Shown here: positions 816 through 19,351 of the stretch, piece after piece
Layout: every line of letters starts with the position of its first letter
Numbering within the stretch: position 1 is the stretch's first letter
Assembly (NCBI RefSeq): GCF_003852425.1
Contig: NZ_QAJN01000013.1
Coordinates: 1-64,000 of the forward strand
Origin: Paucibacter sp. KBW04
GTDB lineage: Bacteria > Pseudomonadota > Gammaproteobacteria > Burkholderiales > Burkholderiaceae_C
Length of the DNA stretch: 64,000 bases
Reading direction: 5' to 3'
Made by a program: the position numbers and the translations under genes
Notes under the pieces: model-generated
Told to the model about the DNA's origin: nothing
Database searches by the model: none
The model's input: the letters and a program-made list of their open reading frames with translations, nothing else

Positions 816-836
816 CTAATACCAATTCCCTACCAA
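816..836 (-). promoter_or_regulatory. Candidate NagQ/GntR operator upstream of TonB receptor
   Basis: On the minus strand this reads TTGGTA-N6-TGGTATTAG. The same half-site pair with the same 6-base gap recurs at 13457-13477 and 13561-13581, upstream of the GlcNAc operon that encodes a GntR/UTRA regulator. Shared sequence and spacing across the two divergently arranged units point to one regulator. Confidence 0.6.
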
Positions 837-941
837 GTTTGGATTGCTTCTATTAGTGGTCTTGCGCCGCTGTAGCAGGCCAGTGAGCGGATTTCAAGGG
901 GGTGGCGGCGCTACGACAGCAGGGAAAACACGCCCTCGAAA

Positions 942-959
942 TTGGTAGCAAAGTGGCAC
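942..959 (+). promoter_or_regulatory. Degenerate operator-like repeat
   Basis: TTGGTA-N6-TGGCAC on the plus strand keeps the first half-site and the spacing of the candidate operator but diverges in the second half. It may be an auxiliary weak site or chance similarity. Confidence 0.25.
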
Positions 960-1037
960 TACTGGACCGTATAGTGGCATGGCATTGGTTGCATTCGTAT
1001 GACAATTGGGGGCATCAGGAACACACCATCCGTCAGA

Positions 1038-1055
1038 TTGGTATGAACCTGGTTC
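1038..1055 (+). promoter_or_regulatory. Operator-like repeat close to the receptor start
   Basis: TTGGTA-N6-TGGTTC on the plus strand, about 50 bases before the receptor ATG, matches the candidate GntR operator with one degenerate half. Its position would suit repression of the receptor. Confidence 0.35.
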
Positions 1056-1105
1056 CGTTAGAAACTGGCCGGTTGCAAGAGTCAAGGCCACATCGAGGAG
1101 CATTT

Positions 1106-3745
1106 ATGAAGATCAAACAAAGTCCGATCGCTGCCGCGGTCACCATGACGCTGCTGAGCGTCGCATTTGCCGCTCAGGCACAGCAGGCTGAACAAGCACC
1201 GGCTGCCAAGTCCGAAGCAACTCAACTCGAAGCCGTGGTGGTGACGGGTATTCGCGCTTCGCTGCAGTCGGCTGCCAATATCAAGAAAAACGCCACCGCG
1301 GTGGTGGACGCCGTGTCTGCTGAAGACATTGGCAAGCTGCCCGATACCGATGTGGGCCAATCGCTGGGTCGCATCCCCGGCATTTCCGTTGGCCGCGCAT
1401 TCGGCCAAGGCGCTTCGGTGTCAATTCGCGGTACCGACCCGCAAATGACCTACACCACGCTGAACGGTCAGACGGTTGCCTCCACCGGTTGGTACGACCA
1501 GCAGGACATCGACCGCTCGTTCAACTACTCCCTGCTGCCCTCCGAAATGGTCGGCGGCATGGAGGTCTACAAGTCCTCGCAAGCGGATCTGACCGAAGGC
1601 GGCATTGGCGGCACGGTGATCGTGAAGACTCGCAAGCCTCTGGACATGAAGGCCAACTCGGCATTCGTCAGCGCCAAGTACGGCAAGGGCACCATCAGCG
1701 ACGCTGACAAGGAAGTCTCGGGTCTGTACAGCTGGAAGAACGCTTCCAGCACCTTCGGCGCCCTGGTCGCTGCGGGTTACTCGGAAGGCACTTACATCCG
1801 TCGTGGTATCGAGGCCGACAGCCGTTGGTCTTCGGACGTTGCACCGACCGCCTTTGTGCAAGACCGTAAGCGCACCGCCCTGAACGTCACCCTGCAAGCC
1901 AAGCCCGTCCAAGGCCTGGAGTTGGGCTTGAATGTTCTGCGCCTGAAGCTGGATGCCAACAACTCCAACAGCAGCGACTACATCTTCCACGACGCCAACT
2001 GCGACAAGCGCAATACCGACGTGACGTCGAGCTTCAACCCCAGTGGCATGTGCTTGCACAGCACCACCACGGCAAGCAATCCCTTGATGAACCAGTTCTA
2101 CCAGAACTGGGCTCGCGCGGCTGAAATGACGTCGGACAGCGTCACCTTTGACGCCCACTACAAGCTGGACAGCGCCAAGTTTGACTTCGTCGCCGGCAGC
2201 ACCAAGGCCGACGGTGGCACCACCCTGACCACCAACTATGCCTACGGCTGGTGGGACAAGCCCGCCAAGTGGCAAGGCACCATTGACGCCACCGGCAAGC
2301 AGATTTCGGTGAACCCGACTTCCAACCAATCCTTCGGCGTCGCGGACTTGCCCAAGCAAAGCTCGCCCGAGACCTGGGCGACCTCGCAAGGCCCGAACAA
2401 GGACCAGGAGAAGTTCCTGCAACTGGACGGCACTTTTGACCTGAACTGGGGTGCCATCGTCGCCTTCAAGACTGGCCTGCGCTACGCCGACCACACCTTT
2501 GAAAAGCGCGCCATCCGCCCGGTGTGGAACAAGACCATCACCCCTGTTGACACCTCGACCCTGTTCAACGGTTCTGTGGATGTGGCCAGCTGGTCCATCC
2601 CGCGTCCGAACATCGACGCCATGATTGCCAACACCAAGGCAAACATCGGCGGCTGGATCGAAGACCGCTCGGCCTACAGCGAACTGAACGAGAAGAACAA
2701 GTCGGCCTACGGCATGTTTGAGTTCGACACCAAGGACATCCGCGGTAACTTCGGCCTGCGTTACGTCTCCACCGACGTGCGCAGCACCGGCTATGTGTTC
2801 GACGGCACGCCTCTGGCCGCTGGCGACTACTCGGGCAACGCCAACTGGAGCAAGAACACCGCCTCCAAGAAGGACAGCTACAACGAGATCCTGCCCAGCG
2901 TCAACATTGCCTTCGACTTGCAACGCAATGTGATCCTGCGCGTCGCTGCCTCGCAGACCATCACCCGACCCAACTTCGCCAATATGTTTGGCGTGACGGT
3001 GTCGGGCTACAACGATGACCGCAAGGGCAACGAAACCTGGACCACCGGCAGTGTCTCGCTCAAGCCCATGAAGTCCAGCAACGCCGATATCGGTGTTGAG
3101 TACTACTACGGCAAGGGCAATATGCTGGCTGCCACCTTCTTCACCAAGGACATCTCCAACTTCATCACCGCTGAAATCAAGGAGAACCAAAAGGTTGGCC
3201 TGGTCGATCCCCTGACCGGCCAAGACAACTGGACCTTGCAGAACTTTGTGAACGCCGGTGGCGGTCGCATCCGCGGTATCGAGTTGCAAGTCAATCACGG
3301 CTTCAACAACGGCTTCGGCACCGCCGCGAGCTACACCTTCACCGACGGCACAGCACCCGCTGCCAGCTATATCGACAATCTGGGCATCTTCACCCAAGCG
3401 TCGAAGCACAACCTGAACTTGGTCGGTTACTACGAGCAAGAGGCCTACTCTGCCCGTCTGGCCTACAACTGGCGCTCGAAGTACATGATCCGCGAAGGCG
3501 CTTTCTGGTACGGCAACCGCATGCATGACGCATTCGGCACGCTGGACGCAAGCCTGGGCTGGAACATCAACAAGACCCTGCGCCTGTCCTTCGACGCCGT
3601 CAACCTGCTCAAGCAAGACGATGTGCAGTACGGCGCAGCCGATGCCAGCAACGCGGCCGTCAAAGACCCGCTGCGCGCTGGTTTCCCGGCCTGGTCCTTC
3701 AAGGGCGAAACGACCTTCAAGCTGGGTCTGAGCGCCAAGTTCTGA
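1106..3745 (+). CDS. TonB-dependent receptor (TonB-Xanth-Caul type), probable GlcNAc/chitooligosaccharide uptake
   Basis: An 879-residue outer-membrane receptor. The ATG at 1106 follows a cgaggag ribosome-binding site and starts a clear signal peptide (MKIKQSPIAAAVTMTLLSVAFA). After it come a TonB-box-like EAVVVTG, the plug (IRASLQSAANIKKNATAVVDAV; DVGQSLGRIPGISVGRA) and a 22-strand-type barrel ending in F. The plug wording is typical of the TonB-Xanth-Caul subfamily, which takes up sugars rather than siderophores and often sits with carbohydrate genes. Here it faces an amino-sugar operon and shares operator-like motifs with it. Substrate specificity is inferred from context, not seen in the sequence. 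Confidence 0.88.
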   Translation: MKIKQSPIAAAVTMTLLSVAFAAQAQQAEQAPAAKSEATQLEAVVVTGIRASLQSAANIKKNATAVVDAVSAEDIGKLPDTDVGQSLGRIPGISVGRAFGQGASVSIRGTDPQMTYTTLNGQTVASTGWYDQQDIDRSFNYSLLPSEMVGGMEVYKSSQADLTEGGIGGTVIVKTRKPLDMKANSAFVSAKYGKGTISDADKEVSGLYSWKNASSTFGALVAAGYSEGTYIRRGIEADSRWSSDVAPTAFVQDRKRTALNVTLQAKPVQGLELGLNVLRLKLDANNSNSSDYIFHDANCDKRNTDVTSSFNPSGMCLHSTTTASNPLMNQFYQNWARAAEMTSDSVTFDAHYKLDSAKFDFVAGSTKADGGTTLTTNYAYGWWDKPAKWQGTIDATGKQISVNPTSNQSFGVADLPKQSSPETWATSQGPNKDQEKFLQLDGTFDLNWGAIVAFKTGLRYADHTFEKRAIRPVWNKTITPVDTSTLFNGSVDVASWSIPRPNIDAMIANTKANIGGWIEDRSAYSELNEKNKSAYGMFEFDTKDIRGNFGLRYVSTDVRSTGYVFDGTPLAAGDYSGNANWSKNTASKKDSYNEILPSVNIAFDLQRNVILRVAASQTITRPNFANMFGVTVSGYNDDRKGNETWTTGSVSLKPMKSSNADIGVEYYYGKGNMLAATFFTKDISNFITAEIKENQKVGLVDPLTGQDNWTLQNFVNAGGGRIRGIELQVNHGFNNGFGTAASYTFTDGTAPAASYIDNLGIFTQASKHNLNLVGYYEQEAYSARLAYNWRSKYMIREGAFWYGNRMHDAFGTLDASLGWNINKTLRLSFDAVNLLKQDDVQYGAADASNAAVKDPLRAGFPAWSFKGETTFKLGLSAKF

Positions 3746-3770
3746 TGCACTCTTTGATTGCATAAGCGCA

Positions 3771-3799
3771 AATGCCCGGCCTTGGCCGGGCATTTTTTC
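3771..3799 (+). terminator. Rho-independent terminator after the TonB receptor
   Basis: An 11-base perfect inverted repeat (AATGCCCGGCC / GGCCGGGCATT) with a 2-base centre, followed by a T-run, 25 bases after the receptor stop. Confidence 0.9.
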
Positions 3800-3854
3800 T
3801 TGTTGCCTGACAATTCAGTCGCCGCCCCAATCCAAAGCCAAACACACAGCCGCC

Positions 3855-4574
3855 ATGCCCGAACCCTTTGCCCTGCGCATGCCTCCCAATATCCAATCGG
3901 TCGCTATTGGCGAGCACCAGGTCGTCTTCATTGATGACTTTCTTGAGCAGCCCGAAGCCCTGCTCGAAGCGGCCTGCCGCAGCAGCTACTCGCCCTACCC
4001 CGGCGTGGCCGAGAAAAAGGGCTATCCCGGCATTCGCGCCGAGGCGCCAGCGGACTACTCGGCCAATCTCACCGAACTGCTGGAACCCCTGATCAAGCTG
4101 AACTTCGGTGTGCCAGAGGATCTGCCCCTGCGCAAAAGCATGTGCGCCTTCTCGCTCACGACCACAGCAGCCTCAGAGTTAGGCCCGCTACAGCGCACCC
4201 CACATTTCGACGCCAGCACGCCCTATCACATGGCGGTCTTGCTCTATCTTTGCGGCCCTGAACATGGCGGCACGGGCTTCTATCGCCACAAAGCCACCGG
4301 CCTGCAGCAAATCACGGCTGAAACGCGGGAGCAGTATCTCGACGAGTACTACGCCGAACTCAACCGGCATCACCCCCCGCCGCGCTATTTCGACGATGGT
4401 GATGCGCACTTCAGCTTTTTGGGCATGATGCCCGCCCGCTTCAATCGCCTGGTGGTCTACCCCGGCAGCTTGCTGCACAGCGCCTGCATCAATCCGGCCT
4501 TGAGCCTGAGCAGCAATCCACGCAGCGGTCGCTTGACCGTCAATACCTTTTACGATTTCGGCACGGTGGTGTGA
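3855..4574 (+). CDS. DUF6445-like putative Fe(II)/2-oxoglutarate-type oxygenase
   Basis: A 239-residue soluble protein. It shows an oxygenase-like metal triad: H117-x-D119 in RTPHFDAS, a distal H208 in SLLHSA and R226 in SGRLTVN, with the GGTGFYRH segment between them. I recognise it as resembling DUF6445, a family often found beside TonB-Xanth-Caul receptors with SapC-like and tryptophan-halogenase-like genes. Neither of those partners is present here. The product and substrate are unknown. A terminator separates it from the receptor, and no strong ribosome-binding site precedes the ATG. Met9 is a possible alternative start. Confidence 0.65.
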   Translation: MPEPFALRMPPNIQSVAIGEHQVVFIDDFLEQPEALLEAACRSSYSPYPGVAEKKGYPGIRAEAPADYSANLTELLEPLIKLNFGVPEDLPLRKSMCAFSLTTTAASELGPLQRTPHFDASTPYHMAVLLYLCGPEHGGTGFYRHKATGLQQITAETREQYLDEYYAELNRHHPPPRYFDDGDAHFSFLGMMPARFNRLVVYPGSLLHSACINPALSLSSNPRSGRLTVNTFYDFGTVV

Positions 4575-4625: not shown

Positions 4626-5696
4626 TCAAACCTTGATGTAAACACCCCGTTTGTCCAAGACCTTGACGATCAAGGCCCAGACGGCGACAAAGGCCAGGGC
4701 GAAGGCCAGGGACTGGCCGTAAGGCCCGACCAAAGGTTTGAGCCAGCCAAAGCCGTGGGCGTAAAGCGGCCCCATCAGGCCCAGACCTTCAAGCAGCACG
4801 GTCGTCATCCAAGCACCGGCATAGGCTGCGATGGCATTGACGCCAAAGGCACGACCCAGAGGCGGCAGGCCGCGACGGTCGATCAGCCAATGCGCCAGGG
4901 CCAGGGCCAAGCAAGCCAGGCCACCGGTCCAAAACACAAAGGAGCCGGTCCACAACTGCTTGTTGAGCGGCAAGCCCAGCTGATCCAGCAGCAAGCCGGC
5001 CAGGGCCGCCGCCGCGCCAAAGGCCAACAAGGGGCGCAGCGACGCACGGCGCAGCCATTCACCCGCGCGCAGACCCAACAACGTCGTCGCCAAAGCCCCC
5101 AAGGTGCTGACCACGCCTTCAGGGTCATGGCCCAGACCGGTCTGGGCATTCCATTCGTAGCCAAAACGGCCCAGCAGCCAGGCATCGGTTTGCGAGGCGA
5201 TATTGCCCACCTTGTCCAGGCTGCCGCCCCAAAGCAAGAGGCCGGCGTAGCCCAGCAGCAAGGCCGCAATCAAGGCCCACTGAGCGCGCTCGCGCAGATA
5301 AATGGCCGCCAGGCCGGTCAAGGCGAAACAGATGCCGATGCGCTGCAGAACGCCGGGGATGCGCAACTCAGGTTTGCTCATGATCCACCAGGCCAGCAGA
5401 TGCAAGACCAGGCCCAGCACCAGGATGCGAGCAGCGCGCTTGAGCACCGTCGCGGCCAGAGGCCCTGCAGGTGCACCGGCCGCAATGCGCCCCCCCATGG
5501 CCAGGGCCAGGGAGACGCCGACGATGAAGAGGAAGAAGGGGAAGATCAGATCGGTGGGCGTGCAGCCATGCCAGGCGGCATGCTCCAGCGGATCCATCAC
5601 ATGGCCCCAGTCACCGGGATTGTTGACGAGCAGCATGCCCGCCACCGTCAAGCCCCGCAGCGCATCCACCGATGCATAGCGCTTTGTCGAGCTCAT
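4626..5696 (-). CDS. nagX: NagX-like membrane acyltransferase (HGSNAT/DUF5009 family)
   Basis: A 356-residue polytopic membrane protein with about ten hydrophobic segments. The N-terminus (RYASVDALRGLTVAGMLLVNN) and the segment AAWHGCTPTDLIFPFFLFIVG are signatures of the heparan-alpha-glucosaminide N-acetyltransferase/DUF5009 family. Bacterial members in GlcNAc clusters are called NagX. Their exact job is not settled, but a role in amino-sugar acetyl transfer or transport is inferred. It is the last gene of the minus-strand nag operon, 37 bases after the GH16 gene. Confidence 0.82.
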   Translation of the reverse strand: MSSTKRYASVDALRGLTVAGMLLVNNPGDWGHVMDPLEHAAWHGCTPTDLIFPFFLFIVGVSLALAMGGRIAAGAPAGPLAATVLKRAARILVLGLVLHLLAWWIMSKPELRIPGVLQRIGICFALTGLAAIYLRERAQWALIAALLLGYAGLLLWGGSLDKVGNIASQTDAWLLGRFGYEWNAQTGLGHDPEGVVSTLGALATTLLGLRAGEWLRRASLRPLLAFGAAAALAGLLLDQLGLPLNKQLWTGSFVFWTGGLACLALALAHWLIDRRGLPPLGRAFGVNAIAAYAGAWMTTVLLEGLGLMGPLYAHGFGWLKPLVGPYGQSLAFALAFVAVWALIVKVLDKRGVYIKV

Positions 5697-5733: not shown

Positions 5734-6669
5734 TTAAAAATCGCAGAGGCTGGGCAAGGCCGGATTGGCCGGCGGCACCGTGTCGATGTGCTTGACGCCG
5801 CCAGCGCGCAGGCGCTTGACCTCGGCCATCACCTGCTTGGGGCTCAGGACTTGCTTGCGGGCATGGAAAACCCAGTCCACATCCTCCTGATAGACCCGCG
5901 CCTCCTCGCTCTTCTCAAGCAAGCCGCCGGGCGAGAACCAGAGGTTGAAGTTGATGGACATGGGCACGACCGGATAGTTGCGTCCGCCATGCTGGGCCAA
6001 CAAGCGGCCATCCAGATAGAGCCGGGTCTTGCCATCGGCGATCTGCATCATCAACACATGCCAGCCGTCCAGCGAGACCATTTCCTCATGGCTCTGGTTG
6101 TAGGCCTGCCATGGGTCCAGCTGCACCGTCTGCCAGGTAATGCCGTACAGCCGCGTCTTGTCGCTGCCCCATCCGCCATTGGGCAGGTACTCGAAGTCCA
6201 ACTCTGAGAAGTTGGGGTCGAAGTCGTGCTTGAGCGGGCTGACCACGTAAAAGGTCTGGATGACCGGGTCACCGTCCAGGCCGCGCAGCGGCTTGTCGTT
6301 GAAGCGCACCCGGGCGGCGTAAGTGCCTTCCAAATACTTGCGCGCATGGCAGAGTTGTGCCTGGCGGGTACCGGGCCCCGTGCCGTCGGTCTGCGCCGTC
6401 ATGCGCAACAGGCGATTGCCGGGCTGCAGCGGATCGGCCACCAAGCTGAACTGCTCGGCCGACCACAGCGCGCCGGGCACGCCGGGGTGGCCGGCCTTGC
6501 TGCGAGGCGTCCAGCCGCCGGCCGTCAACTCGGCCAAGTCTGCATAGGAGAAGTCGTCAAACAGCAAGCCGGCCGAGGCCGCGGTTCGCGGTCCGGCCGA
6601 AGCCAAGGTGGCGACTGCCAGCGTCAAACCGCTGGCCCAGCGCAAGGCAGCGCGCAAAGAGATCGGCAT
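5734..6669 (-). CDS. Secreted glycoside hydrolase family 16-like protein
   Basis: A 311-residue protein with an N-terminal signal peptide ending near ATLASAG and a concanavalin-like domain. The catalytic signature E-L-D-F-E (Glu156, Asp158, Glu160, counting from the ATG at 6669) is the GH16 nucleophile/assisting/acid-base triad. The surrounding residues (FYVVSPLKHDFDPNFSELDFEYLPNGG; WHVLMMQIADGKTRLYLDG; SINFNLWF) also fit GH16. The start nearly abuts the permease stop, implying translational coupling; a TTG two codons earlier is an alternative. GH16 enzymes cleave beta-glucans or beta-galactans, so presence inside a GlcNAc operon is unexpected. The substrate could be a GlcNAc-containing glycan. 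Confidence 0.72.
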   Translation of the reverse strand: MPISLRAALRWASGLTLAVATLASAGPRTAASAGLLFDDFSYADLAELTAGGWTPRSKAGHPGVPGALWSAEQFSLVADPLQPGNRLLRMTAQTDGTGPGTRQAQLCHARKYLEGTYAARVRFNDKPLRGLDGDPVIQTFYVVSPLKHDFDPNFSELDFEYLPNGGWGSDKTRLYGITWQTVQLDPWQAYNQSHEEMVSLDGWHVLMMQIADGKTRLYLDGRLLAQHGGRNYPVVPMSINFNLWFSPGGLLEKSEEARVYQEDVDWVFHARKQVLSPKQVMAEVKRLRAGGVKHIDTVPPANPALPSLCDF

Positions 6670-6671
6670 AT

Positions 6672-8030
6672 TCAACGCGAGGCAGCAGTCGGGGCAGATG
6701 GCGCAGCGGGCGACTCATTCGATGCAGCATCCGCCTGAGTGGCCTCCGCCGCGGCCGCCTCGGGCTTGGGCATCTTGACGAAGAAGAGCAGCACAAACAC
6801 CGGCAGGCCGCACAAAATCGTCCAGAGAAAGAACTTCTCATAGCCCATGGCCATCTGCACATCGCCGCTGATGGTCTTGGAGAAGATGAAGCCCAACTGC
6901 ATCACACCCGTACCGAGGGCATAGTGCGCGGTGGAGAATTTGCCCGGCGCCAAGACCTGCATGATGAACAAAATCATGCCCACAAAGCCGAAGCCATAAC
7001 CAAACATCTCAACCGTCACCGCCGCGCCGATGTGAAACAGATCCGGCGGCAAGGTCGCGCTGAGGTAGTAGAAGGTCAGGTTTGGCACCAGCATGGCGGC
7101 CAGCAAAATCGGCATGGCACGCTTCAAGCTCAGCCAAGAGGTGAAGTAGCCGCCCGCGATGCTGCCAATCAAAAAGGCTGCCGTGCCGAAAGTGCCGTAA
7201 ATGCCCCCGACCTGCTCCGTGGTCAAACCCAGGCCGCCATTGCTGCGCGGCTCGATCAGGAACAAGGGCCCAATCGTCTGCACCTGGCCCTCGGCAAAGC
7301 GGAACAACACGATGAACAAAATCATCAGCCAGATGCCAGGCTTGGTAAGCAAGTCAGCGATCACCTCCTTGAGCGTGGCGAGCACGCTGGCAGCGCTGAC
7401 CTTGCCGGCCTTGGCGTTCAGCACATCGGGCAAGGCACGGGCGTTGTAGGCCGCCAAGCCCGCCAGCAGCAGGGCCAGCATGGCGAAAATGACGCTCCAG
7501 GCATTGAACACGCCCATGCCCTTCTCCAGATGGCCAGCCAAAACAAGCAAGCCGCCCAGGGTCAGGAACTTGGAGGCGTTGAAGAACGCGCCTTGCCAGC
7601 CCGCGTAGGCCGCCTGTTGCTTGCTGTCCAGCGAGGCGAGGTAGAGGCCATCGCAAGCGATGTCATGGGTGGCGGCGGCGTAGGCGATCAGGAACAGCAC
7701 CGCGATGCTGGCCGCAAAATACATGGGCAGCTGCACCGCCAGAGCCATCAGGCCCAAGCCCACAGCGCCGGTGAACTGCATGCCCACGACCACACGCTTC
7801 TTGCTGCTGGCCAATTCCAGGAACGGGCTCCACAGCGGCTTGACGGCCCAGGCCAGGCCCAGCAAGCCGGTCCAGCGGGCGATCTGGTCGTTAGGAACGC
7901 CCATATTCTTGAACATCAGGCCGGCCAGCAGCATGACGACAAAGAACTGCATGCCTTGCACAAAGTACAGGCTAGGCACCCAGCTGATGGGTGAACGCAG
8001 GGCGGGCGTGGTCGGGGGGCTGCTGCTCAT
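6672..8030 (-). CDS. AmpG-like MFS permease for amino sugars or muropeptides
   Basis: A 452-residue major-facilitator permease with about twelve membrane segments and a hydrophilic Ala-rich C-terminal tail. The segment YAAATHDIACDGLYLASL matches the ATxDIAxDG loop of the AmpG/PAT branch, which imports GlcNAc-anhydro-muropeptides. A caggag ribosome-binding site precedes the ATG. Downstream it is coupled to the GH16 gene and upstream it follows the GH3 gene by 39 bases. In this operon it probably brings chitooligosaccharides or cell-wall disaccharides into the cytoplasm for the GH3 enzyme. Specificity is inferred. Confidence 0.78.
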   Translation of the reverse strand: MSSSPPTTPALRSPISWVPSLYFVQGMQFFVVMLLAGLMFKNMGVPNDQIARWTGLLGLAWAVKPLWSPFLELASSKKRVVVGMQFTGAVGLGLMALAVQLPMYFAASIAVLFLIAYAAATHDIACDGLYLASLDSKQQAAYAGWQGAFFNASKFLTLGGLLVLAGHLEKGMGVFNAWSVIFAMLALLLAGLAAYNARALPDVLNAKAGKVSAASVLATLKEVIADLLTKPGIWLMILFIVLFRFAEGQVQTIGPLFLIEPRSNGGLGLTTEQVGGIYGTFGTAAFLIGSIAGGYFTSWLSLKRAMPILLAAMLVPNLTFYYLSATLPPDLFHIGAAVTVEMFGYGFGFVGMILFIMQVLAPGKFSTAHYALGTGVMQLGFIFSKTISGDVQMAMGYEKFFLWTILCGLPVFVLLFFVKMPKPEAAAAEATQADAASNESPAAPSAPTAASR

Positions 8031-8069: not shown

Positions 8070-9557
8070 TCAAGCCAAGGCGACCGGCGAGCGGGCCGAT
8101 GCTTGAGCCCGGCCCTCCAGCCAGGCCTGCAGACCTGCCAGCGCACCCTCGGCATAACCCCAGGTGACGACGGTCGGTGCCTTCACGTCCAGGGCCTGGA
8201 AGGGGTTCCACAGCACCAGATGCAAATCGGGTTGCCAGCCAGCCGCCGCTGCGTTGTAACGGGCGCGGTGGTTGGAGGCCAGCACGTTGATGCGACCGTC
8301 GGCCGGCACCTCGGCCCAGTTGAGCGCATCGATGCTGTCCAGGGCCACAAACTCCACGTCGGCAAAACCGGTGAACAGGCTGCGCACCAGCTGACCCGAG
8401 GGGCCGGCTTCGGAGACACCGTCGCTGTCCACGCTGGCTTGCGTGTAGACGCGCAGGGGCTGATTCAAAGCCGGCGCCTTGGCGCCGTGCAGGGCGGCCA
8501 GGCCAGCGGCCCAGGCGGCGCGCATCAGCTGGTCGTCCAGCTGGCGTTGCTCGAATTCGTAATCGTCGTGGCGCACCGGGTAGGCGTCGGCCAAAGCGTC
8601 CAGGCGAGCCCGGGCCTTCTGACCTTGGGCCAGGGTCAGCTCGCCCTTGTCAAAGGCTTCACGCAGGGCCTGGATGGAGGCAGCCTGCTCCTCCAGGCTG
8701 CCCTGGGCCAGGATCATGTCGGCACCGGCTTGAATGGCCATCACGGCAGCACGGGCGTAGCCATAGCGCTCGTAAATGGCTTTCATCATCAGCGCGTCGG
8801 TGATGACCACGCCCTCGTAGCCCCACTCGCGGCGCAGGATGTCGCCCAGGATCTTGGTCGACAGGGTGGCCGGATGCTCGGGGTCGATTTGCGGGTAGAC
8901 GATATGAGCCGTCATCACGGCCGGCGCTTCATCGCGCAAGGCCTTGAAGGGGCGCAACTCCAGCGCGTCCAGCTCGGCGCGGGACTTGTCCACCGTCGGC
9001 AGGGCCAGGTGCGAGTCCACATGGGTGTCGCCGTGACCGGGGAAATGCTTGACGCAGCAAGCCACGCCTTCGGCCAGGGAGCCGCGCATCCAGGCACCGG
9101 CCAAACGCGTGACCTCATCGGCGTCTTCGGAGAAGCTGCGCTCGGCGATCACCGGGTTGGCAGGGTTGTTATTGATGTCCAGCACCGGCGCAAAGTTCCA
9201 GTTGATGCCGATGGAACGCAGACCCCGCGCCACCGCTGCACCGACCTGCTCGGACAAAGCCGCATCACCCGCCGCACCCAAGGCCATGGCCGAAGGGGCT
9301 TGCGGCAAGAAGGTGGCACGCACCACCGAGCCGCCCTCTTGATCGAGGCCGATCAGGGCCTGCGGGCCCATCACATTGCGCAGATCGCTGGTGAGCTGCT
9401 TCACCTCGGCTTCAGTGCCCAGGTTTTTGCGGAACAGGCAGACCGCGCGCACCTTGTTGACGCGCAGGAACTCGGCCGTGGCCAGATCCAGGCTCTTGCC
9501 CTGGATGTCGACCATGACCAGCTGGCCCGGGTGAAAGCCGGAATGAAAATCGCTCAT
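8070..9557 (-). CDS. nagZ: Cytoplasmic beta-N-acetylhexosaminidase, GH3 family (NagZ-like)
   Basis: A 495-residue protein without signal peptide. The TIM-barrel half carries the NagZ signatures: LIGLDQEGGSVVR, NWNFAPVLDIN, the mobile loop KHFPGHGDTHVDSH (170-183) with its His-Asp acid/base, and the nucleophile Asp254 in GVVITDALMM. It is longer than minimal NagZ (about 340 residues), with an extra C-terminal domain as in two-domain GH3 enzymes. It should remove non-reducing GlcNAc from chitooligosaccharides or GlcNAc-anhMurNAc in the cytoplasm, matching the AmpG-like permease encoded next. The symbol is by homology; the genome may encode another housekeeping NagZ. Confidence 0.85.
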   Translation of the reverse strand: MSDFHSGFHPGQLVMVDIQGKSLDLATAEFLRVNKVRAVCLFRKNLGTEAEVKQLTSDLRNVMGPQALIGLDQEGGSVVRATFLPQAPSAMALGAAGDAALSEQVGAAVARGLRSIGINWNFAPVLDINNNPANPVIAERSFSEDADEVTRLAGAWMRGSLAEGVACCVKHFPGHGDTHVDSHLALPTVDKSRAELDALELRPFKALRDEAPAVMTAHIVYPQIDPEHPATLSTKILGDILRREWGYEGVVITDALMMKAIYERYGYARAAVMAIQAGADMILAQGSLEEQAASIQALREAFDKGELTLAQGQKARARLDALADAYPVRHDDYEFEQRQLDDQLMRAAWAAGLAALHGAKAPALNQPLRVYTQASVDSDGVSEAGPSGQLVRSLFTGFADVEFVALDSIDALNWAEVPADGRINVLASNHRARYNAAAAGWQPDLHLVLWNPFQALDVKAPTVVTWGYAEGALAGLQAWLEGRAQASARSPVALA

Positions 9558-9585
9558 GAAAAAATACTCAGGCTAACGGGCTAAA

Positions 9586-10638
9586 TCAATGGGTCTTGGT
9601 GACTTTGGCCAGATGCGGCGGTTGATCAGGATTGCGGCCGCGCGCGCGGGCCAAGGCTTCGACCATGGGGTAGAAGCTCTGCACCACGGCGATGGCGTCC
9701 AGATCTTCATTGCCGGTGCAGGCCAGGGGCAGTTCGGCACCCGGCGTGCCAGCAGGCGCAGCCAGCAACACACGAGCACCACGGCCACGCATTTCTTCGG
9801 CCAGGGCCAGCAGGCCGGCTTGGGCCGGGCCGCGCGGCGCGAACACCAGCATGGGGTAGCCTTCTTCGATCAAGGCCATGGGGCCATGCTTGACCTCGGC
9901 GCCCGAGAACGCCTCGGCCTGGATACCGCAAGTTTCCTTGAACTTCAAGGCGGCTTCCTGAGCAATCGCCAGGCCCGTGCCACGGCCGATCACGAACAGG
10001 CGGTTGGCGGGGGCCAGCACGTCCACGGCTACGTCCCAGCGCTGGGCAGCGGCTTGGGTCAGGGCCTCAGGCAATTGCTGCAAGGCGGCTTGCAGGTCTT
10101 CGTCCTCACCCCAGGCGGCCACCACACGGGCACCGGCCACCAGCTGGGCGATATAGCTCTTGGTCGCGGCCACGCTGGTCTCGGGGCCGGCATGCAGGGG
10201 GAACACATACTGCGCGGCATCGGCCAGGGGCGAGCCATCGGCGTTCACGAAAGCCACGGTGCGGGCGCCACCAGCGCGAAAGAATTTCGTCGGCGCCACC
10301 AGATCGGGGCTTTGGCCGGACTGCGAGAAGGCCAACGACACCAGGCCTTCGCAAGCGATCTTGCTTTGGTACAGGGTCACCAAGGACATGGGCAGGGAGG
10401 TGACCAGACGACCCATGCGGGCCATCATCAGATAAGCCATGTAGTGAGCGGCGTGGTCGGAGCTGCCACGGGCCACGGTCAGCAGCGAGGTGGGCGGCTT
10501 CTCGCGCAGGGCTGCGCCCAGATCGGCATAGGCCGATTGATCGGCAGCCAGCTGGCGCGCCACCACTTCGGGGGCGCTCAAGGCTTCGGCCAGCATGCGC
10601 GTCTTCAAGTTCGCCAACGAGGAATCAAGCGAGGTCAA
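9586..10638 (-). CDS. Glucosamine-6-phosphate deaminase, SIS type (NagB-II)
   Basis: A 350-residue protein with two SIS sugar-isomerase domains (TVARGSSDHAAHY; LAFSQSGQSPD; VIGRGTGLAIAQEAALKFKETCGIQAEAFSGAEVKHGPMALIE). It resembles the isomerase half of GlmS but lacks the glutamine amidotransferase domain, which is the hallmark of NagB-II, converting glucosamine-6-P to fructose-6-P and ammonia. I chose the TTG at 10636-10638 because an aaggag ribosome-binding site precedes it by six bases; it overlaps the end of nagA by 14 bases. The ATG at 10596 has no clear ribosome-binding site. Confidence 0.88.
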   Translation of the reverse strand: MTSLDSSLANLKTRMLAEALSAPEVVARQLAADQSAYADLGAALREKPPTSLLTVARGSSDHAAHYMAYLMMARMGRLVTSLPMSLVTLYQSKIACEGLVSLAFSQSGQSPDLVAPTKFFRAGGARTVAFVNADGSPLADAAQYVFPLHAGPETSVAATKSYIAQLVAGARVVAAWGEDEDLQAALQQLPEALTQAAAQRWDVAVDVLAPANRLFVIGRGTGLAIAQEAALKFKETCGIQAEAFSGAEVKHGPMALIEEGYPMLVFAPRGPAQAGLLALAEEMRGRGARVLLAAPAGTPGAELPLACTGNEDLDAIAVVQSFYPMVEALARARGRNPDQPPHLAKVTKTH

Positions 10639-11755
10639 TTTCTTCTCCTTCAACAACCACTCGCTGCAGCTGCAGCTCACGGTCCAACACCACCAAATCA
10701 GCCCAAGCACCGACCGTCAACTGACCTCGATCACTCAAACCCATGTATTCCGCCGCATGGCTGGAGACGCGCCGCGAGGCGTCTTCGATCTCAAGCCCGA
10801 TACCGACCAGATTGCGCAAGGCCTGGTCCATCGTCAAGGTGCTACCTGCCAGGGTGCCGTCAGGGAGACGTACGCCCCCCATGCACTTGGTGACGGTATG
10901 ACGTCCGAGCTTGTAGTCGCCGTCCGGCTGGCCGGCCGCGGCCGTCGAGTCCGTCACGCAGAACATGCAAGGAATCGAGCGCAAAGCCACGCGGATGGCG
11001 CCGGGATGCACATGCAAGAGATCGGGAATGATCTCGGCATAACGTGCATGGGCCAGGGCCGCGCCCACCATGCCGGGTTCGCGATGGTGCAAGCCGGTCA
11101 TGGCGTTGAACAGATGCGTGAAGCCTTGGGCGCCATGCTCCAGGGCGGCCACGCCGTCCTCGTAAGTGCCCAGGGTGTGGCCGATCTGCACCTGATAGCC
11201 GGCTGCGCGCAGCTCGGTGATCAGTTCCAGATTGCCGGGCAACTCGGGCGCCAGCGTGATCAGCTTGATGGGGGCCAGGGCATTGAGCTCGCTGACCTCC
11301 TGCATGGCCGCGGGCTTGGCGAAGTCAGGCTGCGCGCCCAGCTTGCCGGGGTTGATATAGGGGCCTTCCAGGTGCACGCCCAGCACGCGGGCGCCCTGCG
11401 GGTCGCGTTCGCGGCAGATCGGCCCCAAGGCGGCCAGGGCGCTGCGGATTTCCTCCATAGGCGCCGTCATCGTGGTGGCCAGCAGCGAAGTCGTGCCGTG
11501 GCGCACATGCAGCTTGGAGATCTCGCGGGCGGCCTCGCCGCCTTCCATGGTGTCGTGGCCGCCACCGCCGTGCACATGCACGTCGATAAAGCCCGGCAGC
11601 ACGATGGGCAGGGCCAGCTTGTCATGCCTGACCTGGGCTTCCGACACCGGCTCGCCGCTGATGGCCGTGATGCGCCCCGCGCTTTGGGTGAGGCGTCCGC
11701 GTACAAAGCCTTGCGGCGTCAGCACATAGCCATCAATGTGTTGGAAATCCCCCAT
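10625..11755 (-). CDS. nagA: N-acetylglucosamine-6-phosphate deacetylase
   Basis: A 376-residue amidohydrolase with all the NagA landmarks in order: HVHG (60-63), HLEGP (128-132), GHT (192-194), HLFNAM (214-219) and catalytic Asp269 in CVTDSTAAAG. It deacetylates GlcNAc-6-P to glucosamine-6-P in the cytoplasm, feeding the NagB-II encoded next. An agaggag ribosome-binding site sits ten bases before the ATG. Confidence 0.96.
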   Translation of the reverse strand: MGDFQHIDGYVLTPQGFVRGRLTQSAGRITAISGEPVSEAQVRHDKLALPIVLPGFIDVHVHGGGGHDTMEGGEAAREISKLHVRHGTTSLLATTMTAPMEEIRSALAALGPICRERDPQGARVLGVHLEGPYINPGKLGAQPDFAKPAAMQEVSELNALAPIKLITLAPELPGNLELITELRAAGYQVQIGHTLGTYEDGVAALEHGAQGFTHLFNAMTGLHHREPGMVGAALAHARYAEIIPDLLHVHPGAIRVALRSIPCMFCVTDSTAAAGQPDGDYKLGRHTVTKCMGGVRLPDGTLAGSTLTMDQALRNLVGIGLEIEDASRRVSSHAAEYMGLSDRGQLTVGAWADLVVLDRELQLQRVVVEGEEIDLA

Positions 11756-11779: not shown

Positions 11780-12511
11780 TCAGTCTTCGCGCCGCATCTC
11801 GGCCACGAAGTCGTAGTAATCGCTGCGGCAATAGGAATGGGTCAGCTCCACGGCATGACCCGATTCCAGATAACCCACCCGCGTGATGAATAGCACCGCT
11901 TGGCCCACCGGCACTTCCAGCAGGCCGGCCAATTTGGCGTCGGCATTGATGGCGCGGATGTGTTGCAGCGCGCGTACCGGCGCGCCACCCAGGGTCTGCA
12001 GATGTTCGTAAAGCGAGGCCTCGACGGCGGCAGGATCGGGCAGCACCGCCTCGGGCAGCACGCTGACCTCGTAAGCCATCACCACCGTATCGGCCAGGCG
12101 CAGACGCTCCAGGCGCGCCACGCGGCCGCCGGTGGAGAGGCCCAGGCTCAGTTGCTCATCGGGCGCGGCGGGCGTGAAGCTGCGGGTCAGCCAGCGCGAG
12201 CTGGGGCGAAAACCCCGCTGCTGCAGCTCTTCCGAGAAACTGGTCAGGCGCGACAGCGGCTGCTCCAGCTTGGGCGCGATGTAATTGCCCGAACCGCGCT
12301 TGCGCACGATCATGCCTTGTTCAACCAAGCGGTCGATGGCCTTGCGTGCGGTCACACGCGAGATTTCCAGCTGCTCCGACAAGACCCGCTCCGAAGGCAA
12401 GGCTTCATCGGCCAGGAACAGGCCTTCACGAATGGCCTGGGCCAGCTTTTGTGCCAGCTGCATATACAGCGGCGAGGCGGCTTGAGGATCCGGCTTGAAT
12501 TGAAATGGCAT
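11780..12511 (-). CDS. nagQ: GntR/HutC-family regulator of the nag genes (NagQ-like)
   Basis: A 243-residue regulator with an N-terminal GntR winged helix (PLYMQLAQKLAQAI; LPSERVLSEQLEISRVTARKAIDRLVEQGMIVRKRGSGNYIAP) and a C-terminal UTRA effector domain of the type that binds phosphorylated amino sugars. It is encoded between the kinase and nagA and is the natural candidate for the repeated TTGGTW-N6-TGGTATTR motif. The ATG at 12511 is chosen; an in-frame TTG at 12520 would overlap the kinase stop. Repression relieved by GlcNAc-6-P or GlcN-6-P is the family expectation. Confidence 0.86.
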   Translation of the reverse strand: MPFQFKPDPQAASPLYMQLAQKLAQAIREGLFLADEALPSERVLSEQLEISRVTARKAIDRLVEQGMIVRKRGSGNYIAPKLEQPLSRLTSFSEELQQRGFRPSSRWLTRSFTPAAPDEQLSLGLSTGGRVARLERLRLADTVVMAYEVSVLPEAVLPDPAAVEASLYEHLQTLGGAPVRALQHIRAINADAKLAGLLEVPVGQAVLFITRVGYLESGHAVELTHSYCRSDYYDFVAEMRRED

Positions 12512-12516
12512 GGCGG

Positions 12517-13455
12517 TCAATTTCCCAATTTTTGGAGGACCTGGCGAACCAGATGCAAGGCACCATCGGCGGAATCACCCTGGGGCGAAACGCAACGGCC
12601 GGCAATGGTGCCTGAGAAATTCGGTGCCAAGCGCAGGGCGATGCTGCCGCACAAGGCCAGGGGCAAGTCGGCCGCCGGGTCCAGCGCCAGCGCCAGACGC
12701 TCCAACTCGACCACGGCCTCTTGCACAAAGCCGACCGCCACCGGGTCGACGTTCGGCCCTTCGGCATGGTCAAACACCAGGCGAGCCAGGCTGGCATACG
12801 CATGCTGACCGGCTTGGGCGCACCAGGCCAGGATGGGCTCACGCTCATCGGAGCCCACGACGGCAAACACCGCGCGGGCCAGCGGGCCCACCGGCACCCG
12901 ACCGTCCTGCGCCTGGTGGGCATGGCGTATGGCCTTCAGGCCCAACCAAGCACCGCTGCCTTCGTCACCACAGATCCAGCCCCAGCCGCTGATGCAGGCG
13001 CGCGAGCCATCGCGGCGCAAAACCTCGCCCACCGTGCCGGTGCCGGCCGCCACCACGGCGCCGGGCTGGCCGCCATGGGCGCCCAGGACGGTGGTGAAAC
13101 CGTCGCCATCCAGCGCCAGCAAGGCGAAGCCGGGCTGCAAGGTCAGGAAGGCCTCGACTTGGGCCGGCACACTGGCGCCCGACAGCCCCAGGCCGATGGC
13201 GTAGTGAGACCAGTCCAACAAATCGCCACCCGCTTGCAGCTGCGCCTGGCGCGCCGCGAGCAAAATATTGGCCCAAGCCTGTTCGGCGCCCTGACCCAGG
13301 GCCGAGGGCCCAGCCTCACCCTGACCGAGGATGCGGCCATTCAAATCACTCAATCGCACCCGCGTCCCGGTGCCACCGCCGTCAACGCCCAAGAAAAAGC
13401 GCACCGAGGCCTTGGCGGATTCCGCACCGAGTGGACAAAGAGTGGTCGTATTCAT
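12517..13455 (-). CDS. nagK: N-acetylglucosamine kinase, BadF/BadG/BcrA/BcrD ATPase family
   Basis: A 312-residue ASKHA-fold kinase with the phosphate-1 motif FLGVDGGGTGTRVRL, the phosphate-2 region VVAAGTGTVGEV, the SGWGWICGDEGSGAWLG segment typical of GlcNAc kinases of this family, and a C-terminal LALCGSIA motif. It would phosphorylate imported GlcNAc. First gene of the operon. The annotated ATG at 13455 has no ribosome-binding site and begins one base after a candidate operator. An internal GTG at 13404, preceded by aagg, is a plausible alternative start that still keeps the whole kinase domain. Confidence 0.85.
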   Translation of the reverse strand: MNTTTLCPLGAESAKASVRFFLGVDGGGTGTRVRLSDLNGRILGQGEAGPSALGQGAEQAWANILLAARQAQLQAGGDLLDWSHYAIGLGLSGASVPAQVEAFLTLQPGFALLALDGDGFTTVLGAHGGQPGAVVAAGTGTVGEVLRRDGSRACISGWGWICGDEGSGAWLGLKAIRHAHQAQDGRVPVGPLARAVFAVVGSDEREPILAWCAQAGQHAYASLARLVFDHAEGPNVDPVAVGFVQEAVVELERLALALDPAADLPLALCGSIALRLAPNFSGTIAGRCVSPQGDSADGALHLVRQVLQKLGN

Positions 13456-13560: not shown

Positions 13561-13581
13561 CCAATACCAATTTAGAACCAA
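13561..13581 (-). promoter_or_regulatory. Second NagQ-like operator in the same intergenic region
   Basis: On the minus strand this reads TTGGTT-N6-TGGTATTGG. Its centre is about 104 bases upstream of the first operator, close to ten helical turns, so both could be held on the same DNA face. Looping is an inference. Confidence 0.55.
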
Positions 13582-13724: not shown

Positions 13725-14723
13725 GTGAACTTCCTCGCCGCAAACGACGCCGGCGCCGCGCTGCTGCGGCGCATCGCCCATCTGGCCGAGCGCCATCCGC
13801 AGATCGCCCTGCAGCGCCTGCAAACCCTGGAGGACCAGCGCCGGGCGGCCGGCGATGTTGCCGCCGCGCTGGACGCGCTTTATGCCTGCTTCTATCTGCT
13901 GGAGCATCGCGGGCGGGCGCTGGAGTTGCAGGCCCCTTTGCGGGCCGCCCTCATCGAGGCCGCCGGCCTGGCCCTGCAAGCGGCGCGCATCCACGAGGCC
14001 CTGGGCCGCCTGGCCTACCAGCAAGGCGAGTACGCCGAGGCCGCCGAGCGCTGGAGCCGGGCCATCGCCCTGAGCCAACAGACCGGAGACGTGTGGCTGA
14101 GCGTGGCGGCCCGCATCGGCAAGGGCCAGATCCACTACGCCATGGGTGCCTGGGAGCAGGGGCGCGAGGTGCACCGCGAGGCCGCCGATTTGCTAGGCCC
14201 GCTGCAAGACAGCTATCTGGCCGCCAAGCTGGCCCTGAATATCGGCGTGGGCTATTTTGAGACGCAGCAGAATGATGATGCCGAGCGCTATTTCAGCCAC
14301 GGCCTGGCCGCGGCGCGCAGCGGCAAACACCGTGAATACGAGGCCGAGGCGCATTGGCATCTGGCCCGCGCCGCCCTGGTGCGCGGCCGCCTGGATTGGG
14401 CCACGACGGACTGCCGCATTGCCCTGAACATCGCCGGCCGGCTGGGCCATAGCTGGCTGGAAAGCGTGGCCAGCCAGACTTGGACCGAGATCGCCCTGGC
14501 GCGCGGCGATGTGGCCGGCGCCATTCTCAGCAGCCAGCACAGCCTGGAGCTGGCCCGCCGCATTCACTCGCGCCCGCAGGAGGGCTTGGCCCATCTGCAG
14601 TTGGCACGCATGCTGGAACGCCAGGGCGATCTGGCCGGTGCCCTGAGCCATCTGTGGCAACACCTGGCCCTGCGCCAGGAGCTGGACAAGCTCAGCGAGA
14701 AAACTCAGGCAATCGCGGGGTAG
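13725..14723 (+). CDS. Tetratricopeptide-repeat protein
   Basis: A 332-residue, Ala/Leu-rich helical protein made of about seven TPR-like units (ALGRLAYQQGEYAEAAERWSRAIALSQQTGD; KLALNIGVGYFETQQNDDAERYFSHGL; GLAHLQLARMLERQGDLAGALSHLWQHL). No signal peptide or membrane segment is seen. It resembles the N-terminal sensor half of TPR-GGDEF or TPR-kinase proteins but ends where an output domain would start, so it is either a stand-alone scaffold or a truncated relative. The GTG start has ggag ten bases upstream. Its 3' end overlaps map by 19 bases in convergent orientation. Confidence 0.75.
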   Translation: MNFLAANDAGAALLRRIAHLAERHPQIALQRLQTLEDQRRAAGDVAAALDALYACFYLLEHRGRALELQAPLRAALIEAAGLALQAARIHEALGRLAYQQGEYAEAAERWSRAIALSQQTGDVWLSVAARIGKGQIHYAMGAWEQGREVHREAADLLGPLQDSYLAAKLALNIGVGYFETQQNDDAERYFSHGLAAARSGKHREYEAEAHWHLARAALVRGRLDWATTDCRIALNIAGRLGHSWLESVASQTWTEIALARGDVAGAILSSQHSLELARRIHSRPQEGLAHLQLARMLERQGDLAGALSHLWQHLALRQELDKLSEKTQAIAG

Positions 14724-15508
14724 TCGCCATAGCCATCGGGCCAGGGCGTTAGCACCTCGAAGCCCGTGGGCGTGACCAGCACCATATGCTCCCACTGAGC
14801 CGAGAGGGATCGGTCGCGCGTCACCACCGTCCAGCCATCGGCCATGTCCTTGATGTCGCGCTTGCCGGCATTGATCATCGGCTCGATGGTGAAGATCATG
14901 CCCGCCTCCAGGCGCAGGCCATCGCCCCGCTTGCCGAAGTGGAAGACATGGGGCTCATCGTGATAAATCGTGCCGATGCCGTGGCCGCCGTACTCGCGCA
15001 CCACGCTGAAGCCATCGCGGTGCGCCACGCTTTGAATCGCATGGCCCACATCGCCCAAGGTGGCGCCGGGCTTGACCTCGCGGATGCCCGCCACCATGGC
15101 CTCGTAGCAGTTGTTCACCAGGCGCCGCGCCTGGATGCTGGGCTCGCCGACAAAGTACATGCGGCTGGTGTCGCCAAACCAGCCGTCCTTGATGATGGCC
15201 ACATCCAGATTGACGATATCGCCCTTCTTCAGCACCTTGTCTGCCGAGGGGATGCCGTGGCAAACCACCTGATTGACCGAGGTGCACAAGGTCTTGGTAT
15301 AGCCGTGGTAGCCGATATTGGCCGGCGTCACGCCCAGGTCCTTGATGATGAACTCGCGGCAGATGTCGTCCAACTCGCCAGTGCTGACCCCGGGCTGGAC
15401 ATGGGGCTTGATCATCTCCAGCACACGCGCCGCCAAATGACCGGCCTCGCGGGCTTTGACGATCTCTTCGGGTGTACGGATGGCGACCTTGCGTTTGCTG
15501 CTATTCAT
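14705..15508 (-). CDS. map: Methionine aminopeptidase, type I
   Basis: A 267-residue enzyme that removes N-terminal methionine from nascent proteins. Dinuclear metal ligands are visible in VNLDVAIIKDGWFGDTSR (two Asp), GHGIGTIYHDEP (His), MIFTIEPM (Glu) and AQWEHM (Glu). Length and motifs fit the housekeeping type Ia enzyme. It is not beside rpsB/tsf here, so it may be a second copy. The ATG at 15508 was chosen because the family N-terminus (IRTPEEIVKAREAG) follows; upstream in-frame sequence lacks family similarity. Confidence 0.93.
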   Translation of the reverse strand: MNSSKRKVAIRTPEEIVKAREAGHLAARVLEMIKPHVQPGVSTGELDDICREFIIKDLGVTPANIGYHGYTKTLCTSVNQVVCHGIPSADKVLKKGDIVNLDVAIIKDGWFGDTSRMYFVGEPSIQARRLVNNCYEAMVAGIREVKPGATLGDVGHAIQSVAHRDGFSVVREYGGHGIGTIYHDEPHVFHFGKRGDGLRLEAGMIFTIEPMINAGKRDIKDMADGWTVVTRDRSLSAQWEHMVLVTPTGFEVLTPWPDGYGDYPAIA

Positions 15509-15537
15509 GGTGTGGAGATCTGTTAGGTGCCGTATTT

Positions 15538-17016
15538 TCACCCACGCCGAGGCCGCAGCCGCCGCCAGCCCATCCAGGCTCCGCTCAGGCACAGGGCCAA
15601 ACCAGCCCCGCCAAAGCCCAGCATCCAAGCGTCCCACAGCGGACGCAGGGCGAGGAATTGAGGCAGGTCGAAACTGTGCAAAAAGGCGAACAACCAGCGC
15701 TCCACCCTTTGGAGGCGGTTGCTGGTTTGCAGCAGGGCTCCGCTGGCCGGATCCACTTCCACCCAATGCGCTTGGGCGTCATCGAACACCAGGCGCAGCG
15801 CGGGTAGCGGGCGCTCGCGCTGGCCCGTCATGGTGTGAGGTTCACGGGCGTAGTAATAGGCGTCATAGGCATGCAGCCACTGGCGCTGTTCGACGCGAGC
15901 CTGCGGCAGCATAGGCGCGGCGGCCGCCAGCAAGGCAGCCTCATCCAGCGCCTGCACCGGCCGCGCCTGCGCGTCCAGCAACAAGCCGCCGCCCTGGCTT
16001 TGCGCCCACACAAACTGCTGGCCGCCCACCCGCCGCCATTCCAGCGTACGGGCTGCGATGCCCCGCTCGGCCAATGTCGCCAGCACGGCGCTGGGCTGCG
16101 GCCCTTGTTGCGCTTGCACAGGTCCGCCCGCGTAAGCCTGCCTATCCAGCTTGGGGCCGCTGGCATCAAACACCCGCCAGGGGTTGAGCGAGAGCAGGCC
16201 GCTCAGAACCCAGGTCAGCGCCAACAAACCACCACCCAAGCCCAGCAGATGATGCCAACGCGCCAGCGGCGCGCGATAGGGCGAGCGCGAGCCGCTCTTG
16301 TAGCGCCCCTTGAAACGCCAGCGCCAGATGCCCACCACCAGCCCGCTCAGACCCAGCACCGAGCCCGCCAGCGACAGGCCAATGACGATGTCCGTCCACC
16401 AAGGCCCCAGCGCCCCGCCGCGGAAGATGTAGAGCCAGTGCAACCAAGCCCCCGCCCAGCCCCAGGTCCGCTCGGTCAAGCTGGCATCACGCACCACCTC
16501 GCCGCTGACGGCGCTGACGTACAGCCAGCTGCGCGCCTCATCTTGCATGGCGACCCGGTGCAAAGGCCGATAGGCATCAAGCGCGCGGGAGTGCGTCCAG
16601 GCGTCCTCCTGCACCGGCCCCAGGCTCTGCCCCGCCACGCCGCCGGCGAAGTGGCGCGCGGCGGCCACCGCCTCCTCCTCGCTCACGGCCATGATGCGCT
16701 GACCCGTCAGCGCATCCACCGCCACCAGGGTCTTACGGCCGTCGCCGAAGAAGTAGCGCGGCTGGCCGGCCACGCTGGCCAGCCGCCAAAGCTTGGGCTC
16801 GCGCAGGCCGGAGGCCTGCAGAGCCTGCTCCAAAGGGATGCAGCAGCCCTGCGTTTGCAGCGGCGCCAGCCCACGCAATTGCTCGGCCGGGGTCAGCTTG
16901 GGGTAGCCCACATAAAGCATCACCAGGCCGGAAACAAACCACAGCGCCATCACCAGGCACAGGCCGATACCGGCCCAGCGATGCAAGAGATAAAGCCAGC
17001 GCCGCCACTGATGCAT
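15538..17016 (-). CDS. PepSY-associated transmembrane protein
   Basis: A 492-residue inner-membrane protein with an N-terminal anchor (WLYLLHRWAGIGLCLVMALWFVSGLVMLYVGYP), a middle membrane pair and C-terminal segments separated by large periplasmic PepSY-like stretches (LDAYRPLHRVAMQDEARSWLYVSAVSGEVV; LVFDDAQAHWVEVDPASGALL). Such proteins accompany TonB receptors in siderophore or metal uptake, sometimes as ferric reductases. Its ATG overlaps the receptor stop (TGATG), so the two are translationally coupled. Confidence 0.85.
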   Translation of the reverse strand: MHQWRRWLYLLHRWAGIGLCLVMALWFVSGLVMLYVGYPKLTPAEQLRGLAPLQTQGCCIPLEQALQASGLREPKLWRLASVAGQPRYFFGDGRKTLVAVDALTGQRIMAVSEEEAVAAARHFAGGVAGQSLGPVQEDAWTHSRALDAYRPLHRVAMQDEARSWLYVSAVSGEVVRDASLTERTWGWAGAWLHWLYIFRGGALGPWWTDIVIGLSLAGSVLGLSGLVVGIWRWRFKGRYKSGSRSPYRAPLARWHHLLGLGGGLLALTWVLSGLLSLNPWRVFDASGPKLDRQAYAGGPVQAQQGPQPSAVLATLAERGIAARTLEWRRVGGQQFVWAQSQGGGLLLDAQARPVQALDEAALLAAAAPMLPQARVEQRQWLHAYDAYYYAREPHTMTGQRERPLPALRLVFDDAQAHWVEVDPASGALLQTSNRLQRVERWLFAFLHSFDLPQFLALRPLWDAWMLGFGGAGLALCLSGAWMGWRRLRPRRG

Positions 17017-19199: not shown

Positions 19200-19351
19200 G
19201 ATCTGAGAAATGCAGAGACGATGCAGCGGCGCGGCGCGCCAAGCCTGCTGAGCCAAGTCAAGCAGGTGGGCGGCCAAAGCCGGGCATGGAATAAATAGGT
19301 TGAAGCCGCCGTCACTGGCGGTGCTTCAGGAATCGAACAGAGGCAGTCGAT

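Follow-up and report, generated by a model that had tools for sequence, protein, structure and literature searches.

Closest described systems

Bacterial GH16 enzymes are known for their action on glucans and galactans. The β-bulge forms a main divide within the family, and the subfamilies linked to chitin, GH16_18 and GH16_19, are fungal (PMC6827312; this and the other papers cited are drawn on in excerpt). The same excerpt assigns the licheninase 1gbg to GH16_21. In the fungal Crh5, a GH16 enzyme with an EXDXE motif, chitooligosaccharides serve as donors, the predicted nucleophile is a Glu and the chitinase activity on NAG5 is poor; a GH16 enzyme with a Glu nucleophile can therefore act on chitin (excerpt of PMC6458159). 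On the catabolic side, NagQ is a GntR regulator of GlcNAc use with tandem-repeat sites (PMC5343134), and fitness data have led to the proposal that NagX acetylates glucosamine outside the cytoplasm (PMC9007349).

We analysed a window of 64,000 nucleotides from Paucibacter sp. KBW04 (contig NZ_QAJN01000013.1), in which a GH16-fold protein, here called GHX, is encoded close to the end of a nag operon of eight genes. The GH16_21 licheninases (1gbg and 1mac) have the same fold (VIA Z 22.4-22.8) and, like GHX, carry EXDXE without a bulge. The identity over the aligned part is 16-18%, and GHX differs in context, being encoded within nag operons and, in some relatives, adjacent to chitinase genes. 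The fungal Crh enzymes (GH16_18/19) are EXDXE members of GH16 with chitin as a substrate and Glu as the nucleophile (PMC6458159). However, they are cell-wall transglycosylases, whereas GHX comes from bacteria and has a catabolic context, and the two are likened by description, not by sequence. Crh5 is absent from the VIA-align matches listed for the GHX model, which excludes nothing. GH16_3 and other laminarinases have the GH16 fold in common with GHX. The best solved relative by sequence profile was κ-carrageenase (GH16_17, 1dyp; E = 0.001), a galactan enzyme whose similarity to GHX is marginal. As for the operon, the window has homologues of the Shewanella nag/chitin genes SO_3504, SO3506 and SO3507 (NCBIfam), all under the equivalog cut-offs; it differs from the Shewanella layout in the AmpG-like permease, the GH3, the GntR-type regulator and the added GHX.

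Operon and gene product

The eight genes of the operon are as follows.

12517-13455, minus strand: NagK-like GlcNAc kinase (BcrAD_BadFG); NF046058, 157.5 bits, cut-off 370
11780-12520, minus strand: GntR-UTRA regulator, possibly NagQ; Pfam, NCBIfam
10625-11755, minus strand: NagA GlcNAc-6-phosphate deacetylase; TIGR00221, 256.3 bits, cut-off 225.65
9586-10710, minus strand: NagB-II-like glucosamine-6-phosphate deaminase (SIS); NF046059, 275 bits, cut-off 430
8070-9557, minus strand: GH3 β-N-acetylhexosaminidase; PF00933, and NF003740, 220.8 bits, cut-off 207
6672-8030, minus strand: AmpG-like MFS permease; TIGR00901, 116.4 bits, cut-off 350
5734-6669, minus strand: GHX, GH16-fold protein, apparently exported, 311 aa, E156-x-D158-x-E160; open reading frame, predicted fold, alignment
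4626-5696, minus strand: NagX-like transmembrane glucosamine N-acetyltransferase (HGSNAT_cat, PF07786); Pfam, NCBIfam

The open reading frame of GHX spans 5734-6675 on the minus strand, with an in-frame ATG at 6669 and the stop at 5734-5736. The ATG begins only 2 bases past the TGA (6672-6674) of the permease gene, so the two genes abut, and 37 bases separate the GHX stop from the start of nagX. The NagX-like protein passed PF07786 (48.3 bits, cut-off 22) and scored 113.1 bits over nearly the full NF046061 model, whose cut-off is 480. The GH3 passed only the hexosaminidase model of NCBIfam, NF003740, which covers NagZ.

Judged by eye, GHX is the operon glycosidase with a signal-like N-terminus; none was evident on the GH3, which is likely cytosolic. 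The first-pass annotation had called GHX exported, and the signal-like N-terminus is in line with this. C107 and C309 form an invariant Cys pair in the family and, from the alignment, may be joined in a disulfide, which would be compatible with export. A simple, rough pattern found a lipobox-like N-terminus in 19 of 52 relatives.

GHX as a remote member of GH16

The GHX protein alone gave no Pfam or NCBIfam match at 0.01, and its score against PF00722 was 11.8 bits (E = 0.16) for a curated cut-off of 22. Because of these weak scores, the GH16 call based on the motif required independent support. Four relatives passed the PF00722 cut-off (L075 with 26.6, L107 with 26.0, L104 with 24.0 and L105 with 25.7 bits), and a fifth scanned with the model (L109) had no match. 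At E up to 1, 38 of the 53 aligned family members matched PF00722, the window protein included, with a best value of 5.6e-8. The AF2 model of GHX (pLDDT 90.6, pTM 0.86) has the predicted β-jelly-roll fold of clan GH-B. Its top solved matches in both Foldseek and VIA-align were GH16 licheninases, 1gbg by Foldseek (E 2.0e-10) and 1mac by VIA-align (Z 22.8, 200 aligned residues, rmsd 2.5). The GH16 assignment is thus owed to the relatives that match PF00722 and to the predicted fold, not to the protein's own Pfam score.

The catalytic motif lies within SELDFEY, and E156, D158 and E160 were invariant in all 53 aligned sequences. The loci in this alignment were found partly by the motif itself; EXDXE also agreed in the window protein and 15 relatives chosen independently of it. 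By comparison, the β-bulge form EXDXXE was carried by all 20 ordinary GH16 genes from a 200-genome sample of the order, which were found at E up to 1e-8 and are thus strong PF00722 members without subfamily assignment. The bulge is also carried by GH16_3, and GHX, which has none, is accordingly not laminarinase-like. The profile of GHX recovered the 20 ordinary genes as remote kin only (probability 76.7, E 2.1e-5), and its sequence alone gave nothing meaningful in the PDB (best E 0.45). With no bulge and weak similarity, the laminarinase reading was rejected. The first-pass annotation was therefore right about the intact E-L-D-F-E motif and about GH16, and the closeness to laminarinases that it had set against its own reading was absent. 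As judged from the alignments and the predicted model, GHX is a remote GH16 member, in a branch of EXDXE type without the β-bulge.

Genomic context of the relatives

A scan of genome contigs returned 349 GHX relatives, and the best 80 of these were retained (73 Pseudomonadota, 4 Chloroflexota and 3 Acidobacteriota, by titles and tree). The synteny counts come from tblastn, HMM and Pfam results only, and one locus with less than 1.5 kb of upstream sequence (L048) is counted among the 80. At least four of five nag genes lay upstream on the same strand in 53 of the 80 loci, an AmpG-like gene was adjacent to GHX in 53, and NagX was adjacent downstream in 50. The synteny is strong, and the lack of conservation that the first-pass annotation had named as a refuting result did not occur either. 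Two of its proposals are supported: the coupling of GHX to the permease, and a GlcNAc-linked substrate, which is unusual for a bacterial GH16 enzyme.

In 15 of the 80 loci, from three lineages, a GH18 gene was directly adjacent to GHX. It lay upstream in nine Microbulbifer loci (in L087 only the gene end falls within the stretch) and downstream in six, namely four Collimonas loci (L065, L066, L067, L080) and two Burkholderiales MAGs (L037, L040). Pfam confirmed the GH18 in the three loci scanned (L065, L037, L075), and in L065 the gene starts at 10870, 23 bases past the GHX match. The nine Microbulbifer loci form a cluster of chitinase, GHX and NagX, the last 28-34% identical, and tblastn found no other nag genes in the stretch covered. 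The three GH18-paired groups occupy separate places in the tree (L037 representing its pair) and have different arrangements; the pairing therefore probably arose more than once. In one relative (L107, genome G038), and only in that one, a 514-aa open frame has two CBM5/12 modules N-terminal to the GHX domain. Such modules also occur outside chitinases. Fourteen of the 80 loci had no AmpG-like gene, NagX or GH18 nearby, as seen by tblastn with few queries and, in some, with little upstream sequence; they comprise 4 Chitinibacteraceae, 4 Chloroflexota, 3 Acidobacteriota and 3 other Gammaproteobacteria.

Several further loci showed features of their own. A distant homologue in genome G454 (L141, 7213-8274) has lost the three catalytic positions in the alignment, and an LPMO10/GbpA_2 gene (8977-10431) follows some 700 bases downstream; by its sequence, the homologue is perhaps a binding protein derived from the enzyme. 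An AraC-type regulator gene upstream of GHX replaces the nag operon in L073 (8834-9781) and L139 (4452-5336), with one open reading frame in between in L139, and L069 and L082 have genes similar in appearance to AraC-type regulator genes. In the Microbulbifer locus L075, a large protein rich in RTX calcium-binding repeats is encoded at 15869-20857, about 5 kb from GHX.

Co-occurrence with chitinase genes

In the 200-genome sample of the order, GHX occurred in 8 genomes (7 with an intact catalytic site), GH18 in 22, PF00722 in 15 and NagX in 10. All seven intact carriers, the window's own genome included, had GH18, against 22 of 200 overall (hypergeometric 7.5e-8, uncorrected for kinship), and so did six of six when the own genome was left out (6.8e-7, likewise uncorrected). 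G454 (E 8e-14), which keeps none of the three catalytic positions, was excluded from the intact count; with it added, the figure was 8 of 8 (5.8e-9). These small values overstate the case because five of the seven carriers belong to one family (f5). Ordinary GH16 was present in 4 of the 7 intact carriers versus 15 of 200 (p 6e-4). NagX was present in 2 of the 7 (p 0.04), and its role as an obligate partner of GHX is unsupported in this sample.

Among 37 named carrier genomes, chosen from the 80 to cover all 14 loci of the context-less group and hence not random, 27 had GH18. It was not found in the other ten (L072, L085, L088, L090, L095, L048, L045, L055, L074 and L025), eight of which are MAGs by title; the ten include all 3 Acidobacteriota checked and two isolates, Glaciimonas soli and Paucibacter oligotrophus CHU3. 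An obligate partnership with GH18 is thereby ruled out, and the chitinase is a usual but not a necessary companion of GHX. A class-wide sample of 370 genomes contained GHX only in the own genome. In that genome, C31:371590-371685 matches a GH18 end (30.2 bits) within a 51-residue open frame and, from this match, is perhaps a chitinase fragment.

Putative operators and the TonB-dependent receptor

A genome motif search placed a putative operator both where the nag operon begins and in front of a convergent receptor gene.

818-836, plus strand: same putative operator, ahead of the gene for the TonB-dependent receptor
902-3745, plus strand: TonB-dependent receptor; PF00593, PF07715
3855-4574, plus strand: DUF6445 protein, downstream of the receptor; PF20043
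13459-13477, plus strand: putative operator AATACCA-N6-TACCAA, nag operon start
13563-13581, plus strand: second operator-like site, one mismatch, in front of the nag operon

With at most one mismatch, AATACCA-N6-TACCAA has these three copies, two before the nag operon and one before the receptor, in the 5.6-Mb genome, and the reversed pattern has one. Of the 49 relatives with enough sequence ahead of NagK, 41 had the shorter pattern TACCA-N6-TACCA there, versus 22 of 980 random stretches from the same loci; with one mismatch allowed, the counts were 46 of 49 and 38 of 980. Upstream of the convergent receptor it was exact in 8 of 21 and present with one mismatch in 16 of 21, figures that have no control of their own.

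The GntR gene and the putative tandem-repeat operator upstream of the nag genes are features of a NagQ regulon, and on sequence grounds the window regulator is possibly NagQ. Since the putative nag operator stands in front of them, the receptor and the DUF6445 gene (902-4574) probably share the regulon of the operon to which they are convergent, the receptor as its probable outer-membrane uptake part. The own GH18 gene lies at C5:66878-67936, just outside the window and not near the three sites, and has no operator copy with up to one mismatch. The site at 13563-13581 stands between nagK and a TPR-repeat gene (13725-14723, plus strand). Beyond it, at 14705-19277, an M24 peptidase, a PepSY-TM protein and a second TonB receptor follow in a row, probably an unrelated uptake cluster.

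Proposed role in chitin and GlcNAc use

GHX probably helps to break down chitin, which is unusual for bacterial GH16, because it is apparently exported, lies in a GlcNAc operon and has several relatives that adjoin chitin-digesting genes. The relatives beside GH18 and the single CBM5/12 fusion point towards chitin-type chains. We hold, with somewhat better than even confidence, that GHX represents an exported, motif-intact, uncharacterised GH16 branch serving chitin or chitooligosaccharide use. Among the matches listed from the open-licence literature, no bacterial GH16 in chitin use was described.

The computations show the gene order, a predicted fold, a conserved motif, operator-like sites in common, adjacent chitinase genes and one CBM fusion; from these we infer, for the following pathway, the substrate, where the chain is cut, the location in the periplasm, what the permease carries and that the regulator binds the sites. 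The TonB receptor (902-3745) would bring chitin oligosaccharides through the outer membrane. Working in the periplasm, or membrane-bound where relatives have a lipobox, GHX would cut β-1,4-linked GlcNAc-containing chains by the double displacement of GH16, with E156 as nucleophile, D158 as helper and E160 as acid/base. The AmpG-like permease would import the short products, the cytosolic GH3 would free GlcNAc, and NagK, NagA and NagB would pass it to glycolysis. NagX would re-acetylate glucosamine in the periplasm, and a NagQ-type GntR regulator would control the receptor and the operon via the shared tandem operators.

GH18 requires the N-acetyl group of the -1 sugar, and a GH16 Glu nucleophile does not. 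GHX might thus cut the partly deacetylated chitin or chitosan parts beyond GH18, with NagX acetylating the freed glucosamine, which we consider unlikely as its specific task. Chitosanase activity is known in GH7, the sister family in clan GH-B, and counts for such a task, as do the 50 loci in which NagX adjoins GHX and the Microbulbifer loci where NagX and GH18 occur apart from other nag genes. However, NagX was present in only two of the seven intact-GHX genomes of the order sample, and it was not found beside GHX in any of the four Collimonas loci. The fitness data on NagX, from five bacteria, concern glucosamine use, but NagX is frequent in chitin operons anyway (excerpt of PMC9007349).

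It is less probable still that GHX is a β-glucanase for opening the walls of fungi or algae, linked to the chitin genes by shared regulation only. Its top structural neighbours are licheninases and other GH16 enzymes, ordinary GH16 co-occurs with GHX, and Chitinophaga pinensis has a mixed chitin and glucan locus with GH16 (excerpts of PMC10449523 and PMC11497827). Nevertheless, the remaining operon handles GlcNAc, the one NCBIfam model passed by its GH3 being that for hexosaminidases, the genome carries two further GH16 genes, both of the bulge type, and the CBM5/12 fusion and GH18 pairing speak for chitin. A role on chitin-glucan is possible.

The AmpG-family similarity and the NagZ-like GH3 (NF003740) could suggest peptidoglycan fragments as the substrate; this is very improbable in view of the GH18 pairing, the TonB receptor under the same putative operator and the permease score, which is far below its family cut-off. 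Keratan, poly-LacNAc or milk-type glycans, of which the first two had been suggested by the first-pass annotation, are hardly credible substrates and find no support, for although GH16 endo-β-galactosidases and O-glycanases exist (the latter with structures among the GHX fold matches; PMC7419316, in excerpt), the Pfam and NCBIfam scans of the operon proteins detected neither a galactosidase nor a sulfatase, and the GH18 neighbours and the CBM5/12 fusion indicate chitin-type chains.

Implications for GH16

We therefore return to chitin or chitooligosaccharide use as the preferred role. A bolder form of it, which we offer tentatively and with considerable doubt, is that the GHX clade is the first bacterial GH16 group for chitin-type polymers. 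Its Glu nucleophile would accept glucosamine or GlcNAc at -1 without acetyl help, and it would work on the partly deacetylated chitin left by GH18, as a set with GH18 and NagX.

The GHX branch spans three phyla (Pseudomonadota, Acidobacteriota and Chloroflexota), with the GlcNAc/chitin clusters in Pseudomonadota. Five GH16 genes of a chitin-degrading Roseateles are described by xyloglucan transferase activity (PMC12473003). If our reading is true, the branch would be a chitin-active group with chemistry unlike that of GH18 and GH20, and its recognition might correct labels such as 'beta-glucanase' or 'xyloglucan transferase'.
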